Assembly: GCF_004146235.1 (NCBI RefSeq)
Contig: NZ_SELO01000012.1
Location: 1 to 64,000 of the forward strand
Origin: Tropicimonas sp. IMCC6043
Lineage (GTDB): Bacteria > Pseudomonadota > Alphaproteobacteria > Rhodobacterales > Rhodobacteraceae
Direction of reading: 5' to 3'
Length of the DNA stretch: 64,000 nucleotides
In this document: positions 2,856 to 41,071 of the stretch, one piece after another
Layout of the letters: each line of letters begins with the position of its first letter
Numbering within the stretch: position 1 is the stretch's first letter
The notes under the pieces: generated by a model
Told to the model about the DNA's origin: nothing
What the model saw: the letters and a program-made list of their open reading frames with translations, nothing else
Database searches by the model: none
Program-made: the position numbers and the translations under genes

Positions 2856-2994
2856 AAGCCGTTGTGGTTGTTGCCGTCTAATGAAGGCCGGCGCAGAAGG
2901 CAAGTGGTTGCCGCGCGGCCGGCCGCAGATTTCGTCTCGGTTTTTGTCCCGCCCCCAATGGACTCGGCCTCACGACGGTGCCGCAGCGCGGCGC

Positions 2995-3023
2995 TTGACA
3001 AGCCCGGCCGGCCGCTCTAGGCA
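2995..3023 (+). promoter_or_regulatory. Candidate sigma-70 promoter for rpsD
   Basis: A perfect -35 TTGACA (2995-3000) is followed after 17 bases by a weak -10, TAGGCA (3018-3023). A strong -35 with a poor -10 is common in alphaproteobacteria. Transcription from here would give an rpsD leader of about 130 bases containing the three hairpins described separately. Confidence 0.45.
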
Positions 3024-3068
3024 GCGCCATCCGGGCCCTCGGGCCGCGGTAATCATTGGTGTTGGTGG

Positions 3069-3141
3069 CCCCCGCAAGGGGATGCCTGTCTCCCGCAAGC
3101 GGGAAAGGACAACGCCCTTCATAGGTGCCCGTTCGGGCGCC
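3069..3141 (+). promoter_or_regulatory. Hairpin-rich leader upstream of rpsD
   Basis: Three compact hairpins lie in a row before the ribosome-binding site. The first is CCCC-GCAA-GGGG (3070-3081) with a GNRA-type loop, the second TCCCG-CAAG-CGGGA (3091-3104), and the third GGTGCCC-GTTC-GGGCGCC (3124-3141), which ends 8 bases before AAGGAG. The word CCCGCAAG occurs in the first two. S4 represses its own operon in some bacteria by binding leader RNA, so a feedback element is possible here; no known S4 leader consensus is recognised. Confidence 0.45.
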
Positions 3142-3163
3142 GGCCTAACGAAGGAGATCAGCC

Positions 3164-3784
3164 GTGACCAAACGCACGTCTGCCAAATACAAGATCGACC
3201 GCCGCATGGGCGAAAACATTTGGGGCCGCCCCAAATCCCCCGTCAACCGCCGCGAATACGGCCCCGGCCAGCACGGCCAGCGCCGCAAGGGCAAGATGTC
3301 CGACTTCGGCCTGCAGCTGCGCGCCAAGCAGAAGCTGAAGGGCTATTACGGCGATCTGACCGAGAAACAGTTCCGCCGCATCTACGCCGAGGCCGAGCGC
3401 CGTCGGGGCGACACCGGCGAGCTTCTCATCGGCCTCCTGGAGCGCCGGCTCGACACTGTGATCTACCGCGCGAAATTTGTGCCGACGATCTTTGCCGCCC
3501 GCCAGTTCGTCAACCACGGCCATGTGCTTGTGAACGGCAGCCGCGTGAACATCCCGTCCTACCGGGTCAAGGAAGGCGATGTCATCGAAGTGCGCGACCG
3601 TTCCAAGCAACTCGCCGTGGTGCTCGAGGCGGTCCAACTGTCGGAGCGCGACGTGCCCGATTACATCGAGGCCGACCATTCCAAGATGACCGCGACCTTC
3701 GTGCGCACCCCGGGCCTCGGCGACGTGCCCTATGCCGTGCAGATGGAACCGAACCTCGTCATCGAATACTACGCCCAGAACTAA
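3164..3784 (+). CDS. rpsD: 30S ribosomal protein S4
   Basis: A primary 16S rRNA-binding protein that nucleates 30S assembly and contributes to decoding accuracy. The 206-residue length is standard. The N-terminal S4 domain runs to about residue 95 ([16 protein letters not shown], then [20 protein letters not shown]), and the RNA-binding S4 fold follows ([14 protein letters not shown], then [13 protein letters not shown]). The N-terminus has no cysteines, so this is the zinc-free form. The GTG start at 3164 has AAGGAG seven bases upstream. The gene is transcribed alone, between a candidate promoter with a structured leader and a strong terminator. Confidence 0.98.
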
Positions 3785-3794
3785 GGCGGATAGC

Positions 3795-3872
3795 GGCGGG
3801 GCGCGCTCTGCCGCGCCCCCGCAAGCCAGAAGGCCCGTCCCCGGGCGTCCTGCCACTTGGGGCGGGCCTTTT
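3795..3872 (+). terminator. Tandem hairpins / rho-independent terminator after rpsD
   Basis: A first G+C-rich hairpin (about 3795-3822, GCGGGGCGCG pairing with CGCGCCCCCGC) follows the stop. A second stem (3830-3870) pairs AAGGCCCG with CGGGCCTT, extended by CCCC/GGGG, and ends in a short T-run. The second is the likely terminator. Confidence 0.8.
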
Positions 3873-3965
3873 GTGTTCCGATCTGCTGCGACGACCGGAA
3901 TCGCTTTGCCTATTCCCGGGCTCGGGTTAGCCTGTTCGCATTATCCCTGATGCACAGGAAAAAAA

Positions 3966-4643
3966 ATGGCTTCGATATACGATTATGGACTGCTGTCCAA
4001 CGCGGTCTACGAAACAAACCCTTCCGTCCAGGGCTGGGCCTGCCGCGATTTCCACGATGGTCTCGGCGAGGGCCTTCAGGCGGGCGTGTTTACCAAGGGC
4101 GACGAAATCGTCGTCGCCTTCAAGGGCACCACGCCGACCCAGGTCAACGACGTGATCGCCGATCTCAAGCTCGGCGTCGGCATGAGCACGAGCTATTTCT
4201 CGGCGGCCGAGGAGTATGTCGCGCGCTATGCCAGCGAGGGCACGGTCGTCGCCACCGGCCACTCGCTCGGTGGCGCGATCGCCCAGGTGGTCGGCAACCG
4301 CCGACAGATTCCCTTCGTCACCTTCAACGCGCCCGGCGTGGCGATCTTCGCCTCGCGCAACCTCCACACCTCTACGGCCCACATGTCTGCGGTCCGCATC
4401 GCTGGCGGCCTGCTGGGCGCGCTGCGCCACCCGATGCAGACGGCGCGCGATGTCGCGGCGACCTTCTATGTCGTCAACGGCAACAACTACCGGCTCTCGG
4501 GCGACGTCGTCAGCCAGATCGGCCTGCATTACGGCGATGTCATCAACATCTCCGCCTCGGGCGACCCGCTGAGCCAGCATTCGATGGACACCGTGTTGGA
4601 GCGGTTGCAACACTTCAACTACGGCAACATCCGCTTCCCGTAG
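3966..4643 (+). CDS. Lipase class 3-like alpha/beta hydrolase
   Basis: A 225-residue protein with the nucleophile elbow [10 protein letters not shown] (Ser near residue 100) preceded by the strand [11 protein letters not shown], which supplies the oxyanion region in class 3 lipases. A later [14 protein letters not shown] segment and a C-terminal [11 protein letters not shown] could give the Asp and His of the triad. No signal peptide is visible, so secretion, if any, would need another route. The ATG at 3966 follows an A-rich stretch with only a weak ribosome site. It stands alone between rpsD and hisC. The substrate is unknown; phospholipid or ester hydrolysis is the family's usual activity. 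Confidence 0.75.
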
Positions 4644-4752
4644 GGCGGCCCGGTCCGCCGGAAGACTGAACGGGCAAAGAGCCGCCGGCATCGACAGGGC
4701 TTCTCGACAACGGCCGATCCTGACCCTAGAACCGCGGGGAACGGAGGCCGTC

Positions 4753-5838
4753 ATGACGAAGATCACTCCTCAACCCGGGATCATGGAGATCGCGCTCTAC
4801 GAGGCGGGTGAAGCCCGTGTCGAGGGCGTGCGCGATATCCTCAAGCTCAGCGCAAACGAGAACCCTTTTGGGCCGAGCCCGGACGCCAAGGAGGCGATCG
4901 CCGCGACCATCGGCCAGGTCCACCGCTATCCCAACACCGATCACGGGCCGCTCCGCCGGGCCATCGGCGAAATCCATGGGCTCGACCCCGAGCGGATCAT
5001 CTGCGGCGTGGGGTCCGACGAGATCATCACCTTTCTCTGCCAGGCCTTCGCCGGGCCCGGCGACGAGGTGCTGCACACCGAACACGGCTTCGCGATGTAT
5101 CCGATCTCGGCCCGTGCCGCCGGGGCGACGCCGGTCGTCGCGAAGGAGCGCGAGCGGGTGGCCGACGTCGATGCGCTGCTCGCCGCCTGTACCGAGCGGA
5201 CGAAGCTCGTCTTTCTCGCCAACCCGAACAACCCAACCGGCACGATGATCGGCGGCAACGAAATGACGCGGTTGGCCGATGGGCTGCCCGAGGGCGCGAT
5301 CCTCGTGATCGACGCCGCCTACGCGGAATTCGTGGGCGAATATGACGGCGGGGCCGGGCTGGCGACGACGCGCGACAACGTGGTGATGACCCGTACCTTC
5401 TCCAAGCTCTACGGGCTCGGCGGCCTCCGCATCGGCTGGGGCTATGGACCCAAGCCGATCATCGACGTGCTGAACCGCATTCGTGGCCCCTTCAACCTCT
5501 CCGAAATGCAGATGGCCGCCGCAGAGGCGGCGCTGCGCGACCGTTCCTGGGCGGAGCGCTGCATCACCGAGAACACCCGCCTGCGCGCCTGGCTCTCGCA
5601 TGAACTGGCCGCGCTCGGCATCCCTTCGGACACGAGCTGCGCCAACTTCATCCTCGCCCGCTTCGCCGATCGCGCGGAGGCCGAGGCGGTTGACCTGCAC
5701 TTGAAATCGCTCGGGGTCATCGTCCGCCGGGTGGCCGGCTACGGCCTGCCGCAATGCCTGCGCATCACCGTGGGCGACGAGGCCGGCTGCAAGCGCGTCG
5801 TCGACGGGATCCGGTCGTTCCAGGAGGGCCGCCCGTGA
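4753..5838 (+). CDS. hisC: Histidinol-phosphate aminotransferase
   Basis: A class I/II PLP aminotransferase of 361 residues. It converts imidazole-acetol phosphate and glutamate to histidinol phosphate in histidine synthesis and often also acts on aromatic keto acids. Visible motifs are [12 protein letters not shown] near residue 32, NPNNPTGTM near 158, and the PLP-binding Lys in [15 protein letters not shown] (about K218). The ATG at 4753 has GGAGG upstream. It overlaps the next gene, a prephenate dehydrogenase, by GTGA; this pairing fits a shared role in aromatic amino acid transamination. Confidence 0.95.
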
Positions 5839-35149: not shown

Positions 35150-35709
35150 GTGGCAGAGACGGCTTCGATTTCCTCCACCATTGCCAAACGCTACGCGCTG
35201 GCGATGTTCGAACTGGCCAGGGACGAGGGCAAATTCGCCGCGCTCGAGGCCGACACCGACACGCTGTTGGCGGCGCTCGAATCCTCCGACGACTTCAAGG
35301 CGATGATCGCCTCGCCGGTCTATTCCCGCGACGAGCAGGCCGCTGCCATCACCGCGTTGGCGGACGCGATGTCGCTCGACGGCACGACGAAGAACGCGCT
35401 GGCGCTGATGGCCTCCAAGCGTCGTCTTTTCGTGCTGCCGCAGCTGCTGGCCGCGCTGCGCGCGATGATCGCCGAAGAAAAGGGCGAAATCGCCGCCGAA
35501 ATCACCTCCGCCGCCACGCTGAGCGACGCGCAGGCCGCGGCACTCACCGAGATGTTGAAATCCCGTTTCGGCAAGGAAATCAAGCTGAACACCACCGTCG
35601 ATGAGAGACTCATCGGCGGACTAATTGTCCAGGTGGGCTCGAAGATGATCGACACGTCGGTCCGCGCGCGTCTCGCCAGTCTCCAGAATGCTATGAAAGA
35701 GGTCGGGTA

Positions 35710-35710
<1 letters not shown>
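35150..35710 (+). CDS. atpH: ATP synthase F1 subunit delta
   Basis: The stator-stalk subunit that links F1 to the F0 b subunits. Residues begin [20 protein letters not shown], typical for the family, and the C-terminal signature region is [26 protein letters not shown] chose the GTG at 35150, which has AGAGGGA at proper spacing and gives the usual 186 residues; an ATG two codons earlier has the ribosome site too close. Its stop overlaps the atpA start (TAATG). First gene of the F1 operon. Confidence 0.94.
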
Positions 35711-37248
<1,538 letters not shown>

Positions 37249-37262
37249 GCGAGGAGTGGTAG

Positions 37263-38147
37263 ATGCCCAGCCTTAAGGACCTCAAAAACCGGATCGACAG
37301 CGTCAAGTCGACGCGAAAGATCACGAAGGCCATGCAGATGGTGGCCGCCGCGAAACTGCGGCGGGCGCAGGACGCGGCCGAGAACGCGCGGCCCTATGCC
37401 GAGCGCATGGAGGCCGTGATGAGCGGCCTCGCCGCTTCGGTCGGCGACAGCGACAACGCGCCCCGGCTGATCGCCGGGACGGGCAGCGACCAGGTGCAGA
37501 TGCTGGTCGTGATGACCTCGGAACGCGGCCTTTGCGGTGGCTTCAACTCCTCGATCGTGAAGGCGGCGCGGCTGAAGATCCAGGAACTGCAGGCCGCCGG
37601 CAAGACGGTGAAGATCATCACCATCGGCAAGAAGGGCCGCGAGCAGCTCAAGCGGGACTATGCCAACCTCTTCGTCGCCCATATCGACATGAGCGACGTC
37701 AAGAAGGTCGGCTATGACGATGCCGCGGGGATCGCCCAGTCGCTGATGGATCGTTTCGCAGATGGCGAATTCGACGTCTGCACGATCTTCTTCAACCGTT
37801 TCGTTTCGGTGATCAGCCAGGAACCGACGGTCAAGCAGATCATCCCGGCGGTGTTCGATGCCCCCGACGCGGAGGCGGAAGCCAGCGCCGCGGCGCCCTA
37901 CGATTACGAACCGAGCGAGGAGGGTGTGTTGGCCGACCTGCTGCCGCGCAGCATCTCGACCCAGATCTTCACCGCCTTCCTCGAGAACGCGGCCTCCGAA
38001 GAGGGCGCGCGGATGACCGCGATGGACAACGCCACGCGCAACGCGGGCGAGATGATCGAAAAGCTGACCATCGAGTTCAACCGCTCGCGTCAGGCGGCGA
38101 TCACCAACGAGCTCATCGAAATCATTTCGGGCGCCGAGGCTCTATGA
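37263..38147 (+). CDS. atpG: ATP synthase F1 subunit gamma
   Basis: The central rotor shaft, 294 residues. The N-terminal helix [20 protein letters not shown] and [13 protein letters not shown], the middle [14 protein letters not shown], and the C-terminal helix [20 protein letters not shown] with [19 protein letters not shown] are all standard. The stop codon overlaps the ATG of the inserted glycosyltransferase-like gene (ATGA), while atpD follows 1.1 kb later instead of immediately. Confidence 0.98.
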
Positions 38148-39187
38148 AAATGGCTCGCCCCCCATATAATGTCGTTGTTGCGCATCCGACTATCTCAGCG
38201 GCCGGAAACTGGATCGACGATTTCGTCGAAGACAGCAGCTTCACGTTTAAAAAGGTGGAGCCGTTTAAAGCGACTTCATCTCTCTTCCGTCGTTGGATAG
38301 GCCGGCTGGGAATGGGGTGGCGTGCGTATCATAACAGTCCGGACGTAGTGGTTGCCAATTTCCCGCATCTTGCATTGAGTGTGGCGTTTTGGAAGATGGT
38401 AATGTTCCGGCGCACGAAAATTGTAGCTTGGTCCTATAACATACCACCTTTGGATAGCCGCATTAAGAGATTTGTGATCGCATTTCTCTCGAGGCGAATT
38501 GACTTGATGGTGCCCCATTCGCGCGTTGAAACTGAGATTTATTCGAGTTTCTACGGTATACCACGGCACAAATTGGTTTTTGTTCCGTTTCAAAGAGGGC
38601 GGCTTCCCGAAGCAGAACCTTTCGAACCGGTCGAGAAACCTTATTTGATTGCCATGGGTTCGATGTCGCGAGACTATCGTACTCTTGCGGACGCAATGCG
38701 GGGAAGTGATTTGAAGCTTCTTCTGATCGCGGATCAGCATGCACTTAAAGGCGTCAGATTGCCGCCGAACGTGGGGCTTCGAAACGGTATATCGTACGTC
38801 GAGTGCTGTGCTCTGACCAAAAGTGCAGAGGCAATGGTTTTGCCTATCGCGTCGAAAAACACGGCATCTGGACACATCACATTATTGACGGCGATGATGC
38901 TTGGTGTTCCGGTCATCGCAACAAGATGTGACAGCATAGCCGACTATGTCACGGACGGGGATACGGCGTTGACGGTTCCGCCCGAAGATCCTGTAGCGCT
39001 TCGTGACGCCATGGAAAGAGTTGCTGAAGATCCCGAGTTGCGTGCCGGTCTTGCGCAACGCGCCCATAGCGCATGGAAAACTCGATACTCGGATGAGGCG
39101 GCAGGACGCAACCTCGCAAAGGTTCTGCATCTTGCGCTGAATGGTTCGGGTGAGGCGCTGGCGGACTTTGTTCCAGAGGGTTACTGA
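38144..39187 (+). CDS. Glycosyltransferase-like (GT4 fold) protein inside the atp operon
   Basis: A 347-residue protein with a GT-B layout. The N-terminal half has a Rossmann-like domain ([14 protein letters not shown] and [15 protein letters not shown]), and the C-terminal half holds [20 protein letters not shown] and the donor-binding segment [19 protein letters not shown] with DSIADYV after it. In typical GT4 enzymes a Glu of the EX7E motif occupies the Thr249 position of that segment, so catalysis may be altered. No membrane helix is seen. The ATG lies in the atpG stop (ATGA); an ATG two codons later is an alternative. Base composition is clearly poorer in G+C (45-55% in lines counted by eye, against over 60% around), suggesting acquisition. 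Donor and acceptor are unknown. Confidence 0.8.
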
Positions 39188-40663
<1,476 letters not shown>

Positions 40664-40672
40664 GGAGGGCCT

Positions 40673-41071
40673 ATGGCCAACACGATGCAGTTCGACCTGG
40701 TTAGCCCGGAGAAGCGGCTCGCGTCGCTCGAGGCCACCCAGGTCCAGATTCCGGCCGCCGAGGGCGACATGACGGCGATGCCGGACCACGCGCCCGTCAT
40801 CACCACATTGCGTCCGGGCCTTGTCAAGGTCACCGGCGCTGACGGGAGCGAGACCAGCTTTGCCGTCACCGGCGGTTTCGTCGAGATCAATGCCGAGGCA
40901 ACGTCGGTGCTCGCCGAACACGCCGCCGCCGGCGATGCTGACAGCCGGGCGGCGCTGGAGGGTTTCCTCGAGGATGCCCGCAAGCGCGCGACCGAGGCGG
41001 AGGGCGACCACAAGGACGTTGTGGAGAAATTCGTCGCGGATCTCGAGCAGCTCCTCGAGGACATGGTCTGA
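40673..41071 (+). CDS. atpC: ATP synthase F1 subunit epsilon
   Basis: The rotor and inhibitory subunit, 132 residues. The N-terminal beta-sandwich has [20 protein letters not shown] and [19 protein letters not shown]. The C-terminal half is a short acidic helix pair ([20 protein letters not shown]). Good GGAGG site. Last gene of the operon. F0 genes are not in the window, consistent with the split F1/F0 arrangement of this lineage. Confidence 0.95.

Follow-up and report, generated by a model that had tools for sequence, protein, structure and literature searches.

In the atp operon of Rhodopseudomonas (Rhodobacter) blastica, described in 1984, an unidentified reading frame reportedly separates the gamma gene from the beta gene. 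It would thus be an additional gene of the same family (Rhodobacteraceae) at the F1 junction described here; it is not known to be connected with a glycosyltransferase or with the end of atpG, and the two are likened by position alone. A search of the literature, in which few subscription journals were covered, gave no title or abstract opening that describes a gene lying between atpG and atpD in Rhodobacteraceae, or repeated use of that site, and the portions available of PMC4057687 and PMC10715153 have no bearing on a gene between atpG and atpD. The protein itself has a described homologue, WP_317377940.1, encoded beside xrtD on a plasmid of Palleronia sp. LCG004 and homologous over its full length (36.7% identity over 93% length). 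That gene lies among flippase, exosortase, sulfotransferase and glycosyltransferase genes, whereas the gene reported here stands alone within an F1 operon.

We analysed a window of 64,000 bases (bases 1-64000 of a 117,409-base contig) from Tropicimonas sp. IMCC6043, in which a glycosyltransferase gene separates atpG from atpD (Table 1). On balance, and by a modest degree, the sequence comparisons below lead us to favour the view that this gene is a horizontally moved cassette, which would occupy a recurrent cargo site, be translated off atpG, and have a likely role in surface polysaccharide.

Table 1. Features of the atp locus, in positions of the 64,000-base window.
Feature	Position	Strand	Remark
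atpH (ATP-synthase)	start about 35144		from ORF translation
atpA (F1 alpha)	35710..37248	+	14-nt atpA-atpG gap, counterpart of the control junction
atpG (F1 gamma)	37263..38147	+	ends SGAEAL-stop
Candidate Shine-Dalgarno GAGG	38136..38139	+	within last atpG codons; comparison of 152 atpG tails
Last two atpG codons and stop, GCT CTA TGA	38139..38147	+	proposed left junction of insert
GT4-like glycosyltransferase gene	38144..39187	+	347 aa, ATG start, GC 52.0%
57-nt spacer 5' of atpD	39188..39244	+	with GGAAGGAAG at 39231-39239
atpD (F1 beta)	39245..40663	+	starts MPKGRVTQV
Proposed right crossover region, head of atpD	39249..39271	+	23 nt identical to genome G567
atpC (F1 epsilon)	40673..41071	+	

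The locus and its counterpart in the genus

The first-pass annotation of this DNA had placed a GT4-like gene of lower G+C between atpG and atpD, starting inside the atpG stop codon, and each of these points was borne out. The ORF listing has atpH, atpA and atpC in their usual order around the gene, which lies on the + strand like atpG and atpD and overlaps the atpG stop by 4 nt (ATGA: ...GAGGCTCTATGAAAATGG). Two glycosyltransferase models match the C-terminal half of the protein above their Pfam gathering scores, PF13692 (E-value = 3.8e-13, 50.4 bits, cut-off 27) and PF00534 (E-value = 3.2e-12, 46.7 bits, cut-off 26.4), and the possibility of an additional ATP-synthase subunit was dropped on this ground. 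The N-terminal GT4 models match weakly, each below its cut-off (PF13579, E-value = 7e-4; PF13439, E-value = 0.012). A single-sequence AlphaFold2 model exhibits a mean pLDDT of 37.7. A chimeric assembly was also considered and is unlikely, since the atpG and glycosyltransferase frames are both intact at their join, well inside the 117-kb contig. A scan of 38000-39320 yielded promoter-like and terminator-like sites at no more than the chance level, and the spacer upstream of atpD has, by eye, no clear likeness to the atpG-atpD spacer of relatives.

The composition of the gene is at odds with that of its neighbours. Its GC and GC3 are 0.520 and 0.532, against 0.637/0.881 for atpG and 0.648/0.863 for atpD, and atpA, atpG, atpD and atpC together span 63.5-66.9% GC and 86-88% GC3. 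Both values lie 4.4 standard deviations below the mean of 41 other ORFs of the 64-kb window (at least 200 aa, retained by a codon-position filter, mean GC 66%), a few of which are probably antisense shadows such as that at 35320-37143 on the minus strand. Among the 42 ORFs so compared the gene ranks lowest in GC and in GC3.

In all eight other genomes of the genus that were examined the atpG-atpD junction is empty (about 20 nt), and a close copy of the glycosyltransferase is found in none of them, the best genus-mate match having an E-value of 1.7e-13. The gene was therefore most probably gained, in support of the acquisition that had been suggested from composition and position, and the same comparison of spacing shows that it is not general at this place in relatives and hence no long-established, regular member of the operon. 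The end of atpG also differs, reading GCT CTA TGA in the window and GCG CTC TGA in the eight genus-mates. The glycosyltransferase gene begins (AAATGGCTCGC) somewhat like atpD of a genus-mate (AAATGGCTAGC), but over a short stretch only; this was set aside, ATGGCT being a common start. Separately, three of the nine genus genomes exhibit a second, divergent AtpG-like gene of 26-27% identity (G000:C92:11570-12385, locus L040; G151:C58, L041; G152:C37, L042) with an ATPase-subunit-like match upstream; it is probably part of an alternative ATPase operon.

Relatives of the glycosyltransferase

The glycosyltransferase family itself is ordinary, and the subfamily is rare. Eight of 394 Rhodobacteraceae genomes, the window's included, have a match at an E-value of 1e-15 or better. 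In this search and in those of the phylum, class and order at most five candidates per genome were scored, so that weaker copies could be missed. The best other match in the family (E-value = 6.3e-66) is in G567, the sole genome of its genus (g375) among those examined, and it too lies between atpG and atpD, in the same orientation, with the same length of 347 aa and 38-40% identity. Unlike the window copy, the G567 gene is host-like in composition (GC 67.6%, GC3 83.0%; its atpG, 64.6% and 87.3%). It begins 8 nt beyond the atpG stop and so does not overlap it, and its spacer differs from that of the window.

The affinity of the two atp-linked copies is not close. In tblastn with the window protein G567 scores 211 bits, and the Palleronia plasmid copy, which is not atp-linked, scores 204 bits. 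A sister grouping of the two atp-linked copies had support values of 82/90 with 14 rows and 70/71 with 17 rows, and was not recovered with eight rows. Given the low identity, the close Palleronia score and this weak grouping, two separate insertions of related genes are possible.

Wider searches located few further relatives. A phylum-wide sample of 398 genomes exhibited no match at an E-value of 1e-20 except the window; a class-wide sample (385 genomes, 3-row profile) added one at 1e-30 (G1096), and an order-wide sample (390 genomes) four at 1e-45. For all five, the flanking sequence of about 1.5 kb is free of atpA, atpG and atpD matches. Back-translated patterns, which reach close relatives only, gave one weak match in GTDB contigs. 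No relative was found with such patterns in viral contigs, nor in phage records, and a phage origin is accordingly without support here.

The E-x7-E motif is characteristic of many GT4 enzymes. By eye, its second glutamate is missing in the window protein and also in the G567, Palleronia, G1240 and G1227 relatives; the Rhizobium copy retains it, and several other GT4 rows read E...G...LEAM. As the motif is incomplete, we label the protein GT4-like rather than a canonical GT4 enzyme.

The three nearest relatives outside an atp operon are all in polysaccharide clusters: the Palleronia plasmid copy is next to xrtD, a flippase and other glycosyltransferases, the G1227 copy has an exosortase, a flippase and a GT4 gene as neighbours, and the G1240 copy lies among glycosyltransferases, sulfotransferases and an acyltransferase. 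Judged by this company, the protein would most likely act as a sugar transferase in the assembly of surface polysaccharide. No recognisable polysaccharide cluster surrounds the Vitreoscilla relative (flanked by a response regulator on one side and by TonB and cobalamin genes on the other) or the Rhizobium rhododendri plasmid relative. The latter has a GC of 46% and lies near reverse-transcriptase and transposase genes, a hint of mobility. On the same plasmid sequence (L212), two tandem ORFs of equal length with identical first 30 residues (938-2758 and 2970-4790) are about 1 and 3 kb from the low-GC glycosyltransferase relative, with a DDE transposase on its other side; the one that was scanned matches reverse transcriptase. 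The glycosyltransferase gene of the window is in the atp operon and not in an exosortase/polysaccharide cluster. The window genome has an exosortase elsewhere (contig C107); in the G567 genome no exosortase was found.

The atpG-atpD junction across the Rhodobacteraceae

The junction was surveyed with the AtpG end joined to the AtpD start as query, in 169 Rhodobacteraceae genomes with nearly one per genus. It could be read in 144 of them (the window, one genus-mate and 142 others), and was also read in nine genus members. The 25 left out comprise ten without a match, nine with the place not among the matches listed, two with atpD at a contig end, three with a single partial match spanning the junction, and one low-completeness genome with a stop-free run. 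In genome G147 (completeness 73%) the AtpG end and the AtpD start share one stop-free stretch of 582 nt (C383:494-1075), fused-looking and possibly an error.

In 132 of the 142 loci from other genera the gap between atpG and atpD is 85 nt or less, 60 of the loci having been picked with both genes matched in one piece and being empty by construction. The expectation that F1 operons of this lineage are usually uninterrupted thus stands. Ten of the 142 nevertheless carry extra DNA at this site (137, 210, 279, 286, 333, 391, 462, 486, 501 and 593 nt). Among the 80 loci in which both gaps were measured, a comparison of these two F1 junctions only, the atpG-atpD junction is enlarged in ten and the atpA-atpG junction in none, its largest gap being 40 nt. 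In a tree of atpG (91 rows) the genomes with insertions are scattered, with 11 changes for 11 rows; the starred branches force at least four changes, in a bootstrap that had not settled. G567 came from a later search and is included in the comparisons of the atpD head and the atpG tail only. On the best reading of these data, F1 operons of Rhodobacteraceae have a recurrent cargo site between atpG and atpD, a wider finding than the gene itself.

The window gene could instead be tolerated baggage, a one-off illegitimate insertion of a stray gene at a gene boundary, retained for no other reason than its lack of polar damage, with the position of the G567 copy a coincidence. Its foreign composition and its confinement to one species of the genus are what such an event would leave, and the distance between the atp-linked copies, their weak grouping and the nearly as close plasmid copy agree with it. 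Nevertheless, the best match among 394 genomes of the family, in so rare a subfamily, is at the identical junction, both atp-linked copies keep a full-length frame, and extra DNA recurs at atpG-atpD and not at atpA-atpG. As the junction recurs and a homologue occupies it in a second genus, a one-off accident looks less likely, and we judge this account rather improbable.

An ancient resident, present in the ancestral junction, lost in most lineages and kept in two, is an explanation to which we give little credence. The g375 homologue at the same place is host-like in composition, and the differing tail codons and spacers of the two carriers would fit long separate histories. Such a history nevertheless needs loss in all eight genus-mates and in all 142 other loci, where even the largest gap is too small for the gene, and the window copy, being low in both GC and GC3, is hard to reconcile with a long stay among genes of 66% mean GC.

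The contents of the enlarged junctions are varied. Measured from the end of the atpG stop, the start of the insert ORF is 0-4 nt away in eight loci and at +26 and +31 in the other two, figures biased by the fact that ORFs close to the atpG stop were sought; for locus L087 the second-longest ORF (85 aa) was used because the longest runs into atpD. L088 and L096 have at most 31 and 40 aa, maybe not genes, and were outside the Pfam scan. Of the eight ORFs scanned, three are DUF6232-like, of which one passes the cut-off and two fall below it, and a fourth is DUF2939. Two more resemble each other by eye and have a coiled-coil look, with a weak DUF1664 match in one, and the last two are without a match. 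The DUF6232-like proteins are at the junction in L091, L100 and L125, genera apart on the atpG tree, L091 alone passing the cut-off. The proteins of L086 and L108 (84 and 70 aa), likewise from genera apart on that tree, are alike by eye and start M-[TA]-EKD-[PA]-SDLAVMTFEMLK.

This variety bears on the proposal of regulatory coupling, according to which tying envelope building to energy status was the selected advantage of having a polysaccharide glycosyltransferase under the ATP-synthase promoter. The shared orientation, the ATGA overlap, the lack of promoter or terminator sites beyond chance and the presence of a gene of this kind at this position in two genera would all suit it. Unrelated ORFs (DUF6232, DUF2939 and others) at the same junction elsewhere argue for a permissive site rather than a link specific to function, and we hold such selection to be quite unlikely.

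Flanking codons and route of entry

The C-terminal residues of AtpG are SGAEAL in 88 of 91 loci and AGAEAL in the other three. Within this tail the codons GAG GC spell GAGG, and a preceding GCG makes it GGAGG, a few bases 5' of the atpG stop. The window GAGG is 4 nt before the glycosyltransferase ATG and 10 nt before a second in-frame ATG at 38150; a start overlapping the atpG stop with a GAGG upstream is, in sequence, the arrangement of a translationally coupled pair.

The tails of 12 insertion genomes, G567 included, were compared with those of 140 empty genomes by Fisher tests, which ignore kinship. GGAGG is present in 5/12 insertion and 0/140 empty genomes (p = 1.3e-6), and any GAGG in 12/12 and 92/140 (p = 0.010); seven of the 12, the window among them, have GAGG rather than GGAGG. 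The last leucine codon is CTC in 1/12 against 114/140 (p = 4.9e-7), and TTG in 5/12 against 0/140. Where the tail alanine codon is GCG in empty genomes, it is followed by GAA in 26 of 26 cases, whereas inside atpA, atpG and atpD of 80 usable empty genomes GCG-GAG before G is chosen in 8 of 36 (p = 0.016). Part of the avoidance of GGAGG may be general, since GCG-GAG is somewhat rare inside atp genes too (p = 0.09). Neighbours on the atpG tree differ as expected: L086 and L100 have GGAGG and L102 lacks it, and the same contrast separates L108 from L104, L096 from L117 or L133, and L087 from L107.

It looks as if empty operons avoid a strong ribosome-binding site at the end of atpG, and some occupied operons appear to have one. 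The inserts may equally have brought the last atpG codons along; the GCT CTA of the window, against GCG CTC in genus-mates, fits adaptation of the tail and imported codons alike. For the recurrence and for this codon signature, the insertion set of 12 genomes is small.

At the other end, GGCAGA occurs at the atpD head in two of 149 readable loci (three of 152 did not fit the search pattern), and these are the window and G567, the two glycosyltransferase carriers. Where these two read AGA, the eight genus-mates read AAA or AAG. The 23 nt around it, identical in the window and G567, are for the most part conserved across the family anyway. We propose that the match may be the trace expected from a crossover within the first atpD codons; it is only six bases long, was spotted after the fact and could be chance.

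Under the favoured reading of a mobile cassette, the gene would have reached this species recently from a lower-GC donor. The likeliest mode of entry would be homologous recombination in which atpG and the first atpD codons served as arms. In Rhodobacterales, gene transfer agents carry DNA pieces of about 4 kb, which are taken into the recipient genome by homologous recombination. Such agents would suit a 1-kb cassette with atpG and atpD arms and are proposed as a route only, ordinary transformation or conjugation being expected to leave the same trace. GTA_TIM, which from its Pfam name we take to be a gene-transfer-agent marker, is present in nine of nine genus genomes. The genus-mates G150 and G155 have seven and five GTA_TIM matches, exceeding one gene-transfer-agent cluster; the extra matches are perhaps related prophages.

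Once in place, a gene with its start at the atpG stop would be translated, on the atp transcript, by ribosomes finishing atpG, the last codons of which would supply a Shine-Dalgarno-like GAGG or GGAGG just 5' of the stop; atpD would retain its own ribosome-binding site downstream of the insert. The product would then transfer a sugar in surface-polysaccharide assembly.

More generally, we tentatively suggest, giving it something just short of an even chance, that Rhodobacteraceae have a natural docking site for cargo genes at the 3' end of atpG. Unrelated genes would be repeatedly captured there into the expression of an essential operon and could pass between genera by recombination of the conserved flanks, and GGAGG would be avoided when the site is empty and adoptable when it is occupied. 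This idea is directly testable by silent changes in atpG. Recurrence together with a codon signature at the atpG-atpD junction is surprising, and offers a concrete example, one that can be counted, of the way in which foreign genes may come into a highly conserved operon and leave it unbroken; the marks of entry would be the use of one junction and not its neighbour, start codons at the stop of the preceding gene, and a codon-level trace within that gene. It cautions, too, that a surface-sugar gene may be housed in an essential operon to which it is unrelated.
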